NCBI GenBank assembly: GCA_015061815.1 | Contig: SUVW01000003.1 | Location: 1-64,000, forward strand | Direction: 5' to 3' | DNA: 64,000 nt | Source of the DNA: Lentisphaerota bacterium | Lineage (GTDB): Bacteria > Verrucomicrobiota > Lentisphaeria > Victivallales > Victivallaceae | Shown: in pieces, positions 3 through 5,545 of the stretch | Layout: each line of letters begins with the position of its first letter | Numbering within the stretch: position 1 is the stretch's first letter | Notes under the pieces: generated by a model | What the model saw: only the letters and a program-made list of their open reading frames with translations | The model's database searches: none | Told to the model about the DNA's origin: nothing | Translations under genes and position numbers: made by a program

Positions 3-1235
3 TTTGCAGAAATTTTTCTTGCATCCGGAATCACAACAGGAATTGTTCTTGCGGGATATATCGTTTATACTTTATTGCAGACAAAATATCAGCTGATCTA
101 CTGGATCCAGGTTTTGGAACTGATCGCGTTTCACTGGGATATCGGTTGGTTTTATCAGGGAAAAGAAGATTTCAAGAGTCTGCTTTACCGTAATTTTCTG
201 GTAAAAATGCTTTATATTATTTTAATCTTTTCCTTTATCAGATCTCCGGAAGATCTGCCTCTTTATGTACTCTTCCGGGTCGGAACATTTCTTGTGGGCG
301 GAGCGACTCTGCTTTGTCCGGTGTTTTTCCAGTGCTGGAAAGAGAAGATCCGAGTCAGTTTTTCTGCAGTGCCGTATCATATCAAAAAAATGATTCCGCT
401 TTTCATTCCGCAAATCGCCATTCAGGTTTACACCGTATTGGATAAAACCATGATCGGAGTTATCACGCAATCGCCCTATCAGAATGGCTGTTATGAAGAA
501 GCGATGAAAGTGATCCGGGTATTGATGAACTTTGTCGGTGCGGCGGCGGGGGTTCTGATGCCCCGGATCGCTTCACTCCATGCAGCGGGAAATACGGAGG
601 AGATCAGAAAAAAACTCTCTATGGGAATCCGTTTTGTCTGTCTGATCACTCTGCCGATGATTGCCGGAGTTATTATAGTAGCCCCGATATTTATGCCGTG
701 GTTTCTGGGTCCCGGTTTTGATGACACTGTAATATTGCTGCAAACATTGGGAGTTCTGTTTTTAGTAATTGGAATCGGAAGAGTTACAGGAAGCTGCTTA
801 CTGGCGGTCAAAAAAGAGAATCTTTATACACGAAATGTCTGTATCGGAGCGGTGATGAATTTTCTTTTGAACTTATGGCTGATAAACCGTTATCAAGCAC
901 AAGGAGCGGCGATTGCTTCGGTTATAGCCGAAGTGATTGTTACCGCCCTGATGTTCTATGAATGCCGTCACTATCTGAATGCAGGAAAAACAGTCAAAAT
1001 GTTCTCTTTATACTTATTATGTGCGGCAGCTATGACGGGATTTCTTATGGCAATAATCAACTGTATCACTCTCAACGCATTCTGGAAGTTAAGTATATTA
1101 TCAATCTCCGGAGCTGTAATGTATGGCGCTGTTTTATTGGTGATAAAAGATGATCTTATATACAGTGTAATAAAAACACTGTTCCGGAAATTCACGGACA
1201 GTTTCCGGAAAAACATTAAAGAGGATTGTAAATGA
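3..1235 (+). CDS. Polysaccharide biosynthesis flippase (Wzx/MATE-like), 5' truncated by window edge
   Basis: Frame stays open from base 3 through the listed ORF (75..1235); many hydrophobic TM segments; 'MIPLFIPQIAIQVYTVLDKTMIG...YEEAMKVIRV' typical of oligosaccharide flippases; EPS gene context. Confidence 0.85.
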   Translation, partial: FAEIFLASGITTGIVLAGYIVYTLLQTKYQLIYWIQVLELIAFHWDIGWFYQGKEDFKSLLYRNFLVKMLYIILIFSFIRSPEDLPLYVLFRVGTFLVGGATLLCPVFFQCWKEKIRVSFSAVPYHIKKMIPLFIPQIAIQVYTVLDKTMIGVITQSPYQNGCYEEAMKVIRVLMNFVGAAAGVLMPRIASLHAAGNTEEIRKKLSMGIRFVCLITLPMIAGVIIVAPIFMPWFLGPGFDDTVILLQTLGVLFLVIGIGRVTGSCLLAVKKENLYTRNVCIGAVMNFLLNLWLINRYQAQGAAIASVIAEVIVTALMFYECRHYLNAGKTVKMFSLYLLCAAAMTGFLMAIINCITLNAFWKLSILSISGAVMYGAVLLVIKDDLIYSVIKTLFRKFTDSFRKNIKEDCK

Positions 1236-1375
1236 GCGTAAAAATATCCGTCTGCATCCCGGTTTACGGGGTGGAAAAATACATCGAAAGATGCGCCCGC
1301 AGTTTGTTTGAGCAAACTATGCGGGCCGGGATGCATTTTTTATTTGGCGTGTATCAACTTTTCTCTGGCAAGTAA
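1232..1375 (+). pseudogene. Truncated GT2 glycosyltransferase N-terminus (47 aa: MSVKISVCIPVYGVEKYIERCARSLFEQTMRAGMHFLFGVYQLFSGK*)
   Basis: ATG overlaps flippase stop (ATGA); near-identical to the start of the full GT2 at 3242, with 73 bp identical (1253-1325 = 3263-3335). Confidence 0.85.
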
Positions 1376-1405
1376 AATATACAGAAAAATTAAAGGTATA
1401 AAATA

Positions 1406-2452
1406 ATGAAGATAACTCATCCGATAGATTTTGTCATTCCCTGGGTTGATGGCAATGATCCGGCATGGCAGGCTGAACGGGCAAAGTACAGCGATGATTC
1501 CGGAGACTCAAGAATTGTTCGTTTCCGCGATTGGGGGCTTTTGCCTTATTGGTTCAGGGGGGTGGAAAAATTTGCCCCCTGGGTAAATAAAGTCCACTTC
1601 ATCACCTGGGGCCATGTGCCAAAATGGCTGAATATAGAGCATCCGAAACTGCATATTGTCAATCACAAAGACTATATTCCTGAAAAATATCTTCCGACAT
1701 TCAGTGCCAATCCGATTGAGTTGAATATACACAGGATCGATGGCTTGGCAGAACATTTTGTCTACTTCAATGACGATATATTTTTAACCAAACCGGTGAA
1801 AGAAACAGATTTTTTCCGGAATAGTCTGCCGTGTGATACAGCGGTTTTAGGACCTGCGAATCTTTTTCTTCCAGATAACGGCATACCCCTTCCGGAAAAT
1901 GTTTTTTCCATGGGGTTCAATGATATTATGGTCATAAATCACCGCTTCAACAAAAAAGAAGTCTTAAAAAAGTATTGGTACAAATTTTTTTCACCGAAAT
2001 ACGGAAAAACAGGGATCAGTTCATTCTTGCAATTACCTTACCGGCAGATTTATGGATTTTATGTTCACCATCTGCCATCGGCTTTCAGAAAATCGATGCT
2101 CGGCCTGGTTTGGCAGGAAAATCCTGAAATAATGGACCACACCTGTCAAAATAAATTCCGTAAATTTACAGATGTCAATCAGTGGCTGGTGCAATATTAT
2201 CAATTTTGTACCGGAAACTTTGTGCCGGTTTCTCCAGGTCGCGGAAAGTGCTTTGATATTTTCAAGGAAGGGATGGAGGCTTTCAGGGCAATCAAGAAAC
2301 AAAAGTATAAGATGATCTGCTGCAATGATTCGGCAGATGCAGATTTTGAACTTGCATCCAAGCAGTTACACGATGCTTTCAGCAGTATATTGCCGGATAA
2401 ATGTTCTTTTGAGATAACGGACAAGACGGACAAGAACGGACAGAACGGTTAA
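1406..2452 (+). CDS. Stealth family capsular polysaccharide phosphotransferase
   Basis: 'IDFVIPWVDGNDPAWQAERAKYS' (CR1-like) and 'EHFVYFNDDIFLTKPV' (CR2-like) match the Stealth signature. Confidence 0.9.
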   Translation: MKITHPIDFVIPWVDGNDPAWQAERAKYSDDSGDSRIVRFRDWGLLPYWFRGVEKFAPWVNKVHFITWGHVPKWLNIEHPKLHIVNHKDYIPEKYLPTFSANPIELNIHRIDGLAEHFVYFNDDIFLTKPVKETDFFRNSLPCDTAVLGPANLFLPDNGIPLPENVFSMGFNDIMVINHRFNKKEVLKKYWYKFFSPKYGKTGISSFLQLPYRQIYGFYVHHLPSAFRKSMLGLVWQENPEIMDHTCQNKFRKFTDVNQWLVQYYQFCTGNFVPVSPGRGKCFDIFKEGMEAFRAIKKQKYKMICCNDSADADFELASKQLHDAFSSILPDKCSFEITDKTDKNGQNG

Positions 2453-2480
2453 TGTCAGCATCTGTAATATCTGTTTAATC
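2417..2480 (+). repeat. Short degenerate repeats (acggacaag units followed by agcatctgtaatatctgtttaat)
   Basis: acggacaag 2417-2425, 2426-2434; aacggacag 2435-2443; then agcatctgtaatatctgtttaat, resembling agcgtctgtaatgtctgttaat at 3120-3141. Confidence 0.75.
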
Positions 2481-2511
2481 AGCTTAAAAAACAGTCGGGA
2501 GAAATAAAAAA

Positions 2512-3102
2512 ATGAGCGACGATCGATCTTCTTTGCTCCAGCCATCCGGCGGTTACCGCAAATTGCGGGCATTCACCCTGGCGCAGCTGTGCTATGATAT
2601 AACTGTCCGTTTTGTGGAATTATATATCCCGAAAAATTCCCGAACCACCGATCAAATGGTGCAAGCTGCCCGCAGTGGAGTACAAAATATTGCAGAAGGA
2701 TCCTGTGCTTCCGCGACCAGTTCGCGCACAGAATTGAAATTGACCGGTGTCGCCCGTGCTTCACTGGAAGAGTTGCGTTTGGATTATGAAGATTTTTTAC
2801 GGCAGCATGAAGCTGTACAATGGACAAAAGATCACCCTCTTTATCAGGAGTGTGTAAAATGTAAAATTTCCACGATGGAACAATTCCGGGAGTTTATTCT
2901 CTGGGCGTTGAGCCAAAATACTGATCATGGGAAATGTGCTGCCCAGGCGGCAATCGTCGCGAATGGGGCCTTAATGTTGATAAATATAACCAATTATCTG
3001 TTGGATAAACTATTAAGAAAGCAAGCGGAAAATTTTGAACAAAACGGCGGATTTTCTGAACGCATGATGCAAGTGCGGTTAAAAAAGCGCAGGAAAGAGT
3101 AA
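2512..3102 (+). CDS. Four-helix bundle protein (S23 / 23S rRNA intervening-sequence protein family)
   Basis: 'RTTDQMVQAARSGVQNIAEGSCASATSSRTELKLTGVARASLEELRLDYEDFLR' is the S23/four-helix-bundle signature. Confidence 0.88.
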   Translation: MSDDRSSLLQPSGGYRKLRAFTLAQLCYDITVRFVELYIPKNSRTTDQMVQAARSGVQNIAEGSCASATSSRTELKLTGVARASLEELRLDYEDFLRQHEAVQWTKDHPLYQECVKCKISTMEQFREFILWALSQNTDHGKCAAQAAIVANGALMLINITNYLLDKLLRKQAENFEQNGGFSERMMQVRLKKRRKE

Positions 3103-3111
3103 CGATCAGTC

Positions 3112-3230
3112 ATGTCCGTAGCGTCTGTAATGTCTGTTAATGTCTGTTAATGTCTGTTAATGTCTGTTAATGTCTGTTAATGTCTGTTAATGTCTGTTAA
3201 TGTCTGTTAATGTCTGTTAATGTCCGTTCA
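3112..3230 (+). repeat. Tandem 10-bp repeat TGTCTGTTAA, 9 perfect copies (3131-3220) with degenerate flanking units
   Basis: Read directly: tgtctgttaa x9 at 3131-3220; gcgtctgtaa before, tgtccgttca after. Confidence 0.98.
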
Positions 3231-3241
3231 AAGGAGTTTTT

Positions 3242-4258
3242 ATGAGTGTAAAAGTTTCAGTATGCATCCCGGTTTACGGGGTGGAAAAATACATCGAAAG
3301 ATGCGCCCGCAGTTTGTTTGAGCAAACTATGCGGGAAGACATTGAATTTGTCTTTGTCAATGACTGTACCCCGGATAGAAGCATTGAGATTTTAGAGCAA
3401 ATCCTGTCGGAGTATCCTCACCGTAAAGAGCAGACAAAAATCATCCACCATGAACAAAACAAAGGGTTGGTTGCCGCCAGAAAAACCGGACTGGCATATG
3501 CTTCCGGGGAATACATCATTCACTGTGATTCTGATGATTGGGTTGAGCTGGATATGTATGAAAAGATGTATAATGCTGCGAAAGAAAATGATGCAGATAT
3601 GGTTTATTGTGATTATTTTGAAAACATCTCTTCCGGAAAGCAAAAAATAATTACAATCCCGCAATACAACTGTTGTGATACTCTATTAAAAAATATTCTT
3701 TCCGGAAAAGTTCATTGCTCTTTGTGTAACAAACTTTTCAAAAAAGATATCGTTTTGGCGGATGATATTTATGCTCCGGATGATATTTGTCTTTCTGAAG
3801 ACTTTCTAAGAGTTTCGCAGATGTTATTAAAATGTAAGAAAGTTGCCTGGTATTCAGAATCTTTTTACCATTACTTCAGGGAAAGAGAAAATTCTTATAC
3901 TTTTCCTGCGGCTTATAAAATAGAATATTTTAATGGAACTTGCCAAGTTGTGGACTTTTTGAAAGGTATATTGCCGCTGCATCAACAAAGAAATTTGGCA
4001 AACTTTCAGGCATTGTCTATGTTTAAGGCGATAAAACATAAATTATTGACAACAGAAGATTTTAAAAATCTGTGGTCTGCTGATCGCAGAAGAATATTGT
4101 TTGCTCCGAATCTCCATATCATCAAAAGACTTGTGATTTTAAGTGCCTTTGTATCATATCCTTTGACCACTGAAATTATAATGCAAATACAAAAATCATG
4201 CTTTTGTAATATTTTACTTAAAATCAGAAACTCATTAAAATTATTGTATTACAGGTGA
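3242..4258 (+). CDS. Family 2 glycosyltransferase
   Basis: 'VSVCIPVYGVEKYIERCARSLFEQT...EFVFVNDCTPDRS...HCDSDDWVE' GT2 motifs; SD-like AAAGGAG upstream. Confidence 0.95.
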   Translation: MSVKVSVCIPVYGVEKYIERCARSLFEQTMREDIEFVFVNDCTPDRSIEILEQILSEYPHRKEQTKIIHHEQNKGLVAARKTGLAYASGEYIIHCDSDDWVELDMYEKMYNAAKENDADMVYCDYFENISSGKQKIITIPQYNCCDTLLKNILSGKVHCSLCNKLFKKDIVLADDIYAPDDICLSEDFLRVSQMLLKCKKVAWYSESFYHYFRERENSYTFPAAYKIEYFNGTCQVVDFLKGILPLHQQRNLANFQALSMFKAIKHKLLTTEDFKNLWSADRRRILFAPNLHIIKRLVILSAFVSYPLTTEIIMQIQKSCFCNILLKIRNSLKLLYYR

Positions 4259-4416
4259 AAATAGTGAGAACAGCAATAGTTATAGCAGATATATCTTTGC
4301 GGGCAGGGACAGAAAGAGCTGTCAGTAATTTAGCAAACATTCTGGCTTCGAAACATAAAGTGACAATCATCAGCATTTGCAGCAAACCGGGAGTTTCAGA
4401 AGGTTACAACCAATAA
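4255..4416 (+). pseudogene. N-terminal remnant of a GT4-type glycosyltransferase (53 aa)
   Basis: Translation VKIVRTAIVIADISLRAGTERAVSNLANILASKHKVTIISICSKPGVSEGYNQ* resembles the GT4 N-terminus (GGxERxxxxLAxxL) then stops; GTG overlaps the GT2 stop. Confidence 0.7.
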
Positions 4417-4429
4417 GGATAAATAAACG

Positions 4430-5545
4430 ATGAAATATGATTATCTTCTCGTCGGGGCCGGACTTTTCAATGCGACTTTCGCAGCTCTCGCCCGCGAAGC
4501 CGGAAAAAGTTGTCTGGCCGTCGAAAAACGCAACCATATCGCCGGAAATATCTATACCGAAAATGTCGATGGCATCAATATACATCAATATGGCGCGCAC
4601 ATCTTTCATACCGATGATAAAGAGTGCTGGGATTTCGTCAACCGGTTTGCCGAATTCAACCGCTATACCAACAGTCCGGTGGCTCTCATCAATGGCAAAT
4701 TATTCAATCTGCCATTCAATATGAATACCTTTCACGCCATCTGGCCCGATGTCATCACCCCGGAACAGGCCCGAAAACGCATCGCAGAACAGGCCGGAGA
4801 AGTCAAAACACCACAAAACCTTGAAGAACAAGCCATTTCACTCGTCGGCAGAGATATTTACGAATTGCTCATCAAAGGCTACACCGAAAAGCAGTGGGGC
4901 AGAGCATGCACCGAACTTGCCGCCGATATCATCAAACGGCTGCCATTGCGTTTCACTTATGACAACAACTACTTCAATGACCGTTTTCAAGGCATCCCCA
5001 TCGGCGGATACACCGGAATGATCCGGAAAATGTTCGGTGATACCGAAATCCGCCTTTCCTGCGACTTCCTTGCCAATAAAAATGAATTGCCTCAACTGGC
5101 AGAAAAGGTAATTTATACCGGCACCATCGATTCTTATTTTGATTATTGTTTCGGCGAACTGGAATACCGTTCTTTGCGCTTTGAAACCGATAAATATCCC
5201 TGTCAGAATCAACAGGGCGTGGCGGTGATCAACCATACTTCAGCCTCGGTGCCGTACACCAGAACCATTGAACACAAACACTTTGAAGTTGAAAATAAAG
5301 ACGGATTCAATGCTCCTTACACCTTTGTCACCCGGGAATATCCGGCCGACTGGAAACGGGGAGATGAACCGTATTATCCGGTAAATAATATTCGCAATTC
5401 GGAAATTTATCAAAAATATTCCGATCAGGCGGCAAAAGAAAAAAATGTCATTTTCGGCGGCCGCCTCGGCATGTACCGTTACTTTGATATGGATGATACC
5501 GTCATCGCCGCCATAAATTGTTTCAAACAGCAGGTAAAACCATGA
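4430..5545 (+). CDS. glf: UDP-galactopyranose mutase
   Basis: 'YDYLLVGAGLFNATFAALAREAGKSCLAVEKRNHIAGNIYTE...HQYGAHIFHTDDKECWDFVNRF...NGKLFNLPFNMNTF' diagnostic of Glf. Confidence 0.97.
   Translation: MKYDYLLVGAGLFNATFAALAREAGKSCLAVEKRNHIAGNIYTENVDGINIHQYGAHIFHTDDKECWDFVNRFAEFNRYTNSPVALINGKLFNLPFNMNTFHAIWPDVITPEQARKRIAEQAGEVKTPQNLEEQAISLVGRDIYELLIKGYTEKQWGRACTELAADIIKRLPLRFTYDNNYFNDRFQGIPIGGYTGMIRKMFGDTEIRLSCDFLANKNELPQLAEKVIYTGTIDSYFDYCFGELEYRSLRFETDKYPCQNQQGVAVINHTSASVPYTRTIEHKHFEVENKDGFNAPYTFVTREYPADWKRGDEPYYPVNNIRNSEIYQKYSDQAAKEKNVIFGGRLGMYRYFDMDDTVIAAINCFKQQVKP

Follow-up and report, generated by a model that had tools for sequence, protein, structure and literature searches.

Free-standing S23 proteins are common, and we know of no function for them. 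Arrays of short tandem words, including the heptamer repeats of cyanobacteria (STRRs), likewise have no maker that is known to us, and STRRs have to our knowledge not previously been linked to S23 genes. In REPIN/RAYT systems, a single- or low-copy gene is flanked by a repeat that is particular to its lineage and also occurs in dispersed copies, which form hairpin doublets; the gene encodes an IS200-like Y1 HuH transposase and the repeat is a palindrome of about 20 bp (PMC3116915). Intervening sequences (IVSs) of 23S rRNA, which are regarded as selfish, have an S23 open reading frame (ORF) in the loop of a stem that their terminal inverted repeats form, and RNase III cuts them out (PMC4990558). 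The Avd protein of diversity-generating retroelements (DGRs) has a four-helix-bundle fold that is related to that of PF05635 (PMC10053308).

The window, which is the whole stretch of 64,000 nucleotides analysed here, carries an S23 gene with a word array on each side in a glycan locus (Table 1). The left array has four ACGGAC(A) words (AACGGACAAG) at a spacing of 9-10 bp (direct reading; TRF score 52). The order on the 3' side of the S23 ORF is TGTCCGT (3113), agcgtctgtaa, nine perfect TGTCTGTTAA units (3131-3220) and TGTCCGTT (3221-3228), and the array stops at the ribosome-binding site of the following gene. No other tandem array in the window comes near the strength of its part from 3123 to 3228 (TRF score 198), and the arrays of the window have a period of 10. 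ACGGACA, the upstream word, and TGTCCGT, the downstream one, which is of the TGTCYGT type, are reverse complements of each other. The S23 gene makes up one cassette with the AACGGACA array before it and the TGTCYGT array after it. Every repeat element that the preliminary description had listed around the S23 ORF is present by direct reading and TRF, including the tgtccgtt-type closing element and its relation to the upstream word. When the segment is folded, as the preliminary description had proposed, the left and right arrays pair in the minimum free energy structure, but taken in its entirety the fold is unremarkable (z -1.2). An Rfam search of positions 1000-4500 gave no match to a known RNA family.

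Table 1. Features of the S23 cassette and of its neighbours in the window
Feature	Position	Strand	Remarks
Polysaccharide flippase gene	75..1235	+	left neighbour of the ancestral site
Remnant that duplicates the 5' end of the GT2 gene farther downstream	1232..1346	+	from a separate glycan-gene insertion
Stealth-type phosphotransferase gene	1406..2452	+	neighbour, outside the cassette; in the relative L113 no Stealth gene separates the flippase and S23 genes
Left array, ACGGAC(A) words	2416..2448	+	direct reading, TRF
Degenerate words of opposite orientation (GTCAGCATCTGTAATATCTGTTTAAT; within it agcatctgtaatatctgtttaat at about 2458-2480)	2452..2480	+	resemble the start of the right array; by eye
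Gene of the cassette: S23-family four-helix-bundle protein with C-terminal TIGR04258 'suffix', 196 aa	2512..3102	+	
Right array: TGTCCGT, GTCTGTAA, nine TGTCTGTTAA units, TGTCCGTT	3113..3228	+	direct reading, TRF
GT2 glycosyltransferase gene	3242..4258	+	right neighbour of the site; orthologous sites empty or with a solo array in L344 and L343

The protein of the cassette scores 30.1 bits against TIGR02436, above the cut-off of 24, and 27.5 bits against PF05635, below the gathering score of 33.8. A stronger match than that to TIGR02436 is given by TIGR04258, the 'four helix bundle suffix' model (67.6 bits, cut-off 40), which no paper found in a check of the open-access literature mentions. The AlphaFold2 model has a pLDDT of 94.8, and the nearest PDB structures in a Foldseek search are the S23 proteins 2gsc, which is the best, and 2rld. 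The first of these is Xcc0516, which forms a homopentameric ring (PMC4990558). The fold is that of S23: Pfam and NCBIfam models reveal no HuH domain, and libraries of defence and phage proteins gave no match.

The left array lies within the 3' end of the Stealth ORF, and its units double as the C-terminal tail of the Stealth protein (ITDKTDKNGQNG), as had been noticed before; most simply, Stealth is a later neighbour with a reading frame that continues into the array, and this accounts for the odd tail. Stealth and the duplicated 5' end of GT2 were considered as parts of the cassette and rejected, since L113 has the S23 gene between the flippase and the GT2 remnant without Stealth. A glycan context that belongs to the unit is not supported either, and the Stealth insertion is accompanied by its own, separate GT2 5' duplication. 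Truncated copies of the first ~115-130 bp of GT2 lie ahead of inserted glycan genes both in the window (1232-1346, compare 3242-3357) and in L113 (4672-4800); the genes that follow the remnant are Stealth in the window and TagD-LicD in L113, which belongs to the genome SIG79. This suggests that genes have been inserted at the GT2 junction more than once and that the 5' end of GT2 was duplicated in the process.

Comparison of orthologous sites reveals that the S23 gene and both arrays insert as one unit. The Nostoc plasmids pC052_D (L424) and pNsp_c (L435) have a common backbone of 90-99% identity. An S23 cassette is found in pC052_D between the stop codon of one gene and the ATG of the following one, at a place which is empty in pNsp_c, while a different S23 cassette occupies another junction of pNsp_c that is empty in pC052_D; both inserts begin and end with or near their own arrays. 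The site of the window is found in three states: empty in G055 (L344), where the flippase gene is directly followed by GT2; with only a solo three-word TGTCYGT array in G035 (L343); and with the S23 gene and both arrays, between the flippase gene and the GT2 remnant, in SIG79 (L113). For a second genomic type of cassette, the site is the 3' end of a glyoxalase gene; its orthologues in G055, G034 and G054 are empty, the glyoxalase gene running straight into a RhuM gene. Insertions are mostly found between genes or at gene ends. The earlier suggestion that the ORF and its repeats travel together is borne out by the reciprocal plasmid sites, by the three states of the window's site and by the empty glyoxalase sites.

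Direct duplications of 20-100 bp of host sequence are found at about one in ten suffix-S23 cassettes (L002, L011, L090, L098, L151, L158, L180 and three others). Flanking target duplications were rejected as a general signature: 10 of 103 loci exceed all 171 controls, and none is seen in the Nostoc insertions. At a glyoxalase gene end (L006, G000:C16:14000-24000), two near-identical units of S23 and RhuM genes stand in tandem. The second RhuM gene is cut short by an array that by eye appears to be a CRISPR array of type II, and ORFs that resemble Cas9, Cas1 and Cas2 adjoin it.

Arrays are a widespread companion of S23 genes. The host genome has four further copies or fragments of suffix-S23 genes, the suffix domain occurs in 37 of the 79 genomes of the host's family, and a GTDB-wide scan gave 80 suffix-S23 loci in many phyla. 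A word array of exact period lies within 400 bp of 68 of 117 distinct suffix-S23 genes vs 12 of 792 control windows, so flanking arrays at S23 homologues elsewhere, which the preliminary description had expected, are far beyond chance. At least three identical 6-mers in regular spacing are found within 600 bp of 71 of the 117 full-length suffix-S23 genes vs 11 of 85 windows taken from elsewhere in the same suffix-S23 loci, and this spacing is nearly always 9 or 10 exactly. Arrays were also found at 32 of 80 plain S23 genes, which lack the suffix, compared with the same 12 of 792 control windows; this sample is composed of the control set of non-suffix S23 genes and of relatives on cyanobacterial plasmids. 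With detection by exact words and the use of metagenome-assembled genomes as caveats, no array was found at 49 of the 117 suffix-S23 genes and 48 of the 80 plain ones, including one whole plain subfamily. Arrays are almost absent from a Lentisphaeria group of plain S23 genes (L335, L366-L382, L391, L398-L413), which may have another function or may have lost them. The left array frequently abuts or overlaps the start codon (L113 and the C16 copies), and the right-hand array can be downstream, as in the window, or intragenic, in the linker that joins the helical domain to the suffix. Cyanobacterial cassettes have the same inverted layout: the one between nrdB and nrdA of Nostoc edaphicum reads AGTAGGG... 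- S23 - ...CCCTACT, and the one between cas6 and cas4 of Anabaena sp. 90 reads ACAGGTG... - S23 - ...CACCTGT.

The word and the period of the arrays follow the lineage of the protein. The period is 9 or 10 at 67 of 68 array-bearing suffix-S23 genes and 7 or 8 at 30 of 32 plain ones. Words of suffix-S23 genes include ACGGAC, TACGGA, GTGGAC, ATGGAC, AGGGAC, TGGGAC and GAATAC, among others; a single universal TGTCYGTT repeat is rejected, and TGTCYGTT/ACGGACA is the word of the window's lineage only, other S23 genes having other words. Left and right words that were found independently are reverse complementary in 15 of 27 loci (shuffles: mean 5.0, maximum 10), with kinship among these loci as a caveat. 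On the tree of suffix proteins, the period changes 3 times (shuffles: mean 20.9, minimum 16) and the word class 11 times (mean 34.3, minimum 28), so both are inherited with the protein, across phyla. On plasmids of Nostoc, Anabaena and Calothrix, the period-7 arrays at plain S23 genes look like classic heptanucleotide STRRs; they share with STRRs the tandem heptamer and the dispersed period-7 word arrays, whereas the period of 10 sets the window apart.

Arrays are also dispersed without the gene. Of the 79 family genomes, 64 have CGGAC-type arrays, with up to 149 hits per genome in pattern searches that count overlapping hits inside one array separately. The median number of hits is 12 in genomes with a suffix-S23 gene vs 1 in those without (p = 2e-6, phylogeny not controlled). 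Dozens of dispersed arrays can be present in a genome that has only 1-4 suffix-S23 genes. In genomes that were reached from S23 loci, the dispersed arrays mostly consist of the word of the resident S23 gene: ATGGAC in 97% of those of G080, TGGGAC/TAGGAC (TRGGAC) in 96% of those of G086, GTGGAC/ATGGAC (RTGGAC) in G079 and G081, and AGGGAC/GGGGAC in G085; the suffix-S23 genes of each of these genomes number 1-4. Several words are found within the single genomes G083 and G088. Repeats that are common without an S23 gene had been named in the preliminary description as evidence against a common unit; they are indeed common, yet they mostly carry the word of the resident gene, as non-autonomous copies would. 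Its interpretation is, overall, partly supported. Many dispersed arrays are inverted doublets, and the 15 of 15 that were found run from a GGAC array to a GTCC array at a distance of 2-103 bp; three of them, when folded, are far stabler than their shuffles (z -9 to -11). The number of words per array has a mode of 4-5 that depends on the genome and reaches 10-20. A strict rule of five words per pentamer was rejected: G080 (mode 5) fits it, with five words in 15 of 24 arrays, and G086 (mode 4) does not, with four words in 18 of 24. In the dispersed arrays of G080 (L273-L286), the first GGAC word usually follows a run that is rich in G or in purines. In G059, G054 and G027, which have many dispersed CGGAC arrays, no recognisable suffix-S23 gene was found; the gene may have been lost there, or the arrays may have other upkeep.

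These observations are best explained, with a probability of roughly 0.7, by a small mobile cassette in which an S23 master gene is flanked by inverted arrays of its lineage word, in a manner that resembles REPIN/RAYT. The single- or low-copy S23 gene would be the master and the arrays its non-autonomous followers, which would also spread on their own, either as single arrays or in inverted doublets able to form long hairpins. The master protein would be non-enzymatic and probably pentameric; its solved relative Xcc0516 is a homopentamer. A ring of S23 subunits would read the tandem words, one per subunit, on the folded ends, be they single-stranded DNA or RNA, bring these ends together and hand them to a trans-acting or host enzyme; an enzyme from elsewhere is proposed because S23 has no recognisable catalytic site. 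Against this reading count the three genomes with arrays in which no suffix-S23 gene was recognised, the suffix and plain S23 genes at which no array was found, the number of words per array, which differs between genomes, and the scarcity of long flanking duplications. Among the 80 suffix-S23 loci, no neighbour is widely shared except type I restriction genes.

A repeat-flanked gene together with dispersed inverted doublets of the same repeat, as in REPIN/RAYT, is found mainly in G079, G080, G081 and G086. The differences are that the gene encodes an S23 four-helix bundle instead of the transposase by which RAYTs are defined, that the repeat is a tandem word of 6-7 bp at a fixed period, and that the gene itself moves with its arrays. 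Like the IVS, the cassette encloses its S23 ORF in terminal inverted repeats with the capacity to pair into a stem, but it lies between protein-coding genes and not in an rRNA helix, its inverted repeats are word arrays, and it has a suffix domain and dispersed non-coding copies. By a check limited to open-access papers, the S23-array system is of a new kind, because the RAYT transposase is missing, the elements lie outside rRNA and no DGR is linked. A wider proposal, for and against which we see the odds as even, is a new class of minimal mobile elements in which a non-enzymatic S23 ring reads arrays of its lineage word by subunit register (period 7-8 without and 9-10 with the suffix) and spreads both its own cassette and gene-less arrays, including the cyanobacterial heptamer repeats. 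The tie of array period and word to the S23 lineage, together with cassette insertion, joins two puzzles, both of which can be tested directly. If true, it would be a REPIN/RAYT-like system built on an unrelated and apparently non-catalytic protein.

The inverted arrays could instead pair and so enclose the S23 ORF in a stem that is cut from host transcripts by RNase III, as in the 23S IVSs (PMC4990558), which would make the insertion harmless without the protein having to read the arrays. The extreme stability of the dispersed doublets and the pairing of the window's two arrays are consistent with this reading, but a stem needs no period that is locked to the architecture of the protein, many arrays are solo and the fold of the window segment is not unusual as a whole, which leaves the explanation possible and rather doubtful. 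Autoregulation, in which S23 would bind the array in its own mRNA leader, in a TRAP-like manner, to control its own translation, with the dispersed arrays as a regulon, agrees with the position of many left arrays at the start codon and with a word and period that track the protein. It leaves unexplained why an inverted array lies downstream or within the linker, why the gene and both arrays are inserted so precisely and why the doublets are consistently inverted, and it is an unlikely account; it could coexist with mobility, and both it and IVS-like excision could be parts of one life style with mobility.

A reading of the arrays as ordinary repeats made by slippage, or as hot spots for insertion, with S23 genes as passengers, is suggested by arrays which were clearly expanded by slippage, such as the nine perfect units of the window and the homogeneous runs in G085 and G088. 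Empty sites have no arrays, however, and the arrays come with the gene; with the inverted arrangement, the matching of words and the period rule also against it, this explanation is very improbable. The related folds of PF05635 and Avd (PMC10053308) would allow S23 to act as the Avd of a diversity-generating retroelement, but linkage was tested at the 80 suffix-S23 loci and no reverse transcriptase recurs as a neighbour, which makes such a role scarcely credible.

Returning to the mobile cassette, an obligatory partner gene was also rejected, as the one kind of neighbour that is seen again in different phyla, type I restriction genes, is present at about 9 of the 80 loci. In several phyla, HsdR- and HsdM-like genes of type I restriction-modification systems lie beside the suffix-S23 gene, namely in L132, L138, L143, L149, L156, L162, L171 and L173. 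Plain S23 genes are found inside CRISPR-cas operons of cyanobacterial plasmids (L427, L431, L432), where they occupy the gap between cas10 and cmr3 or that between cas6 and cas4.
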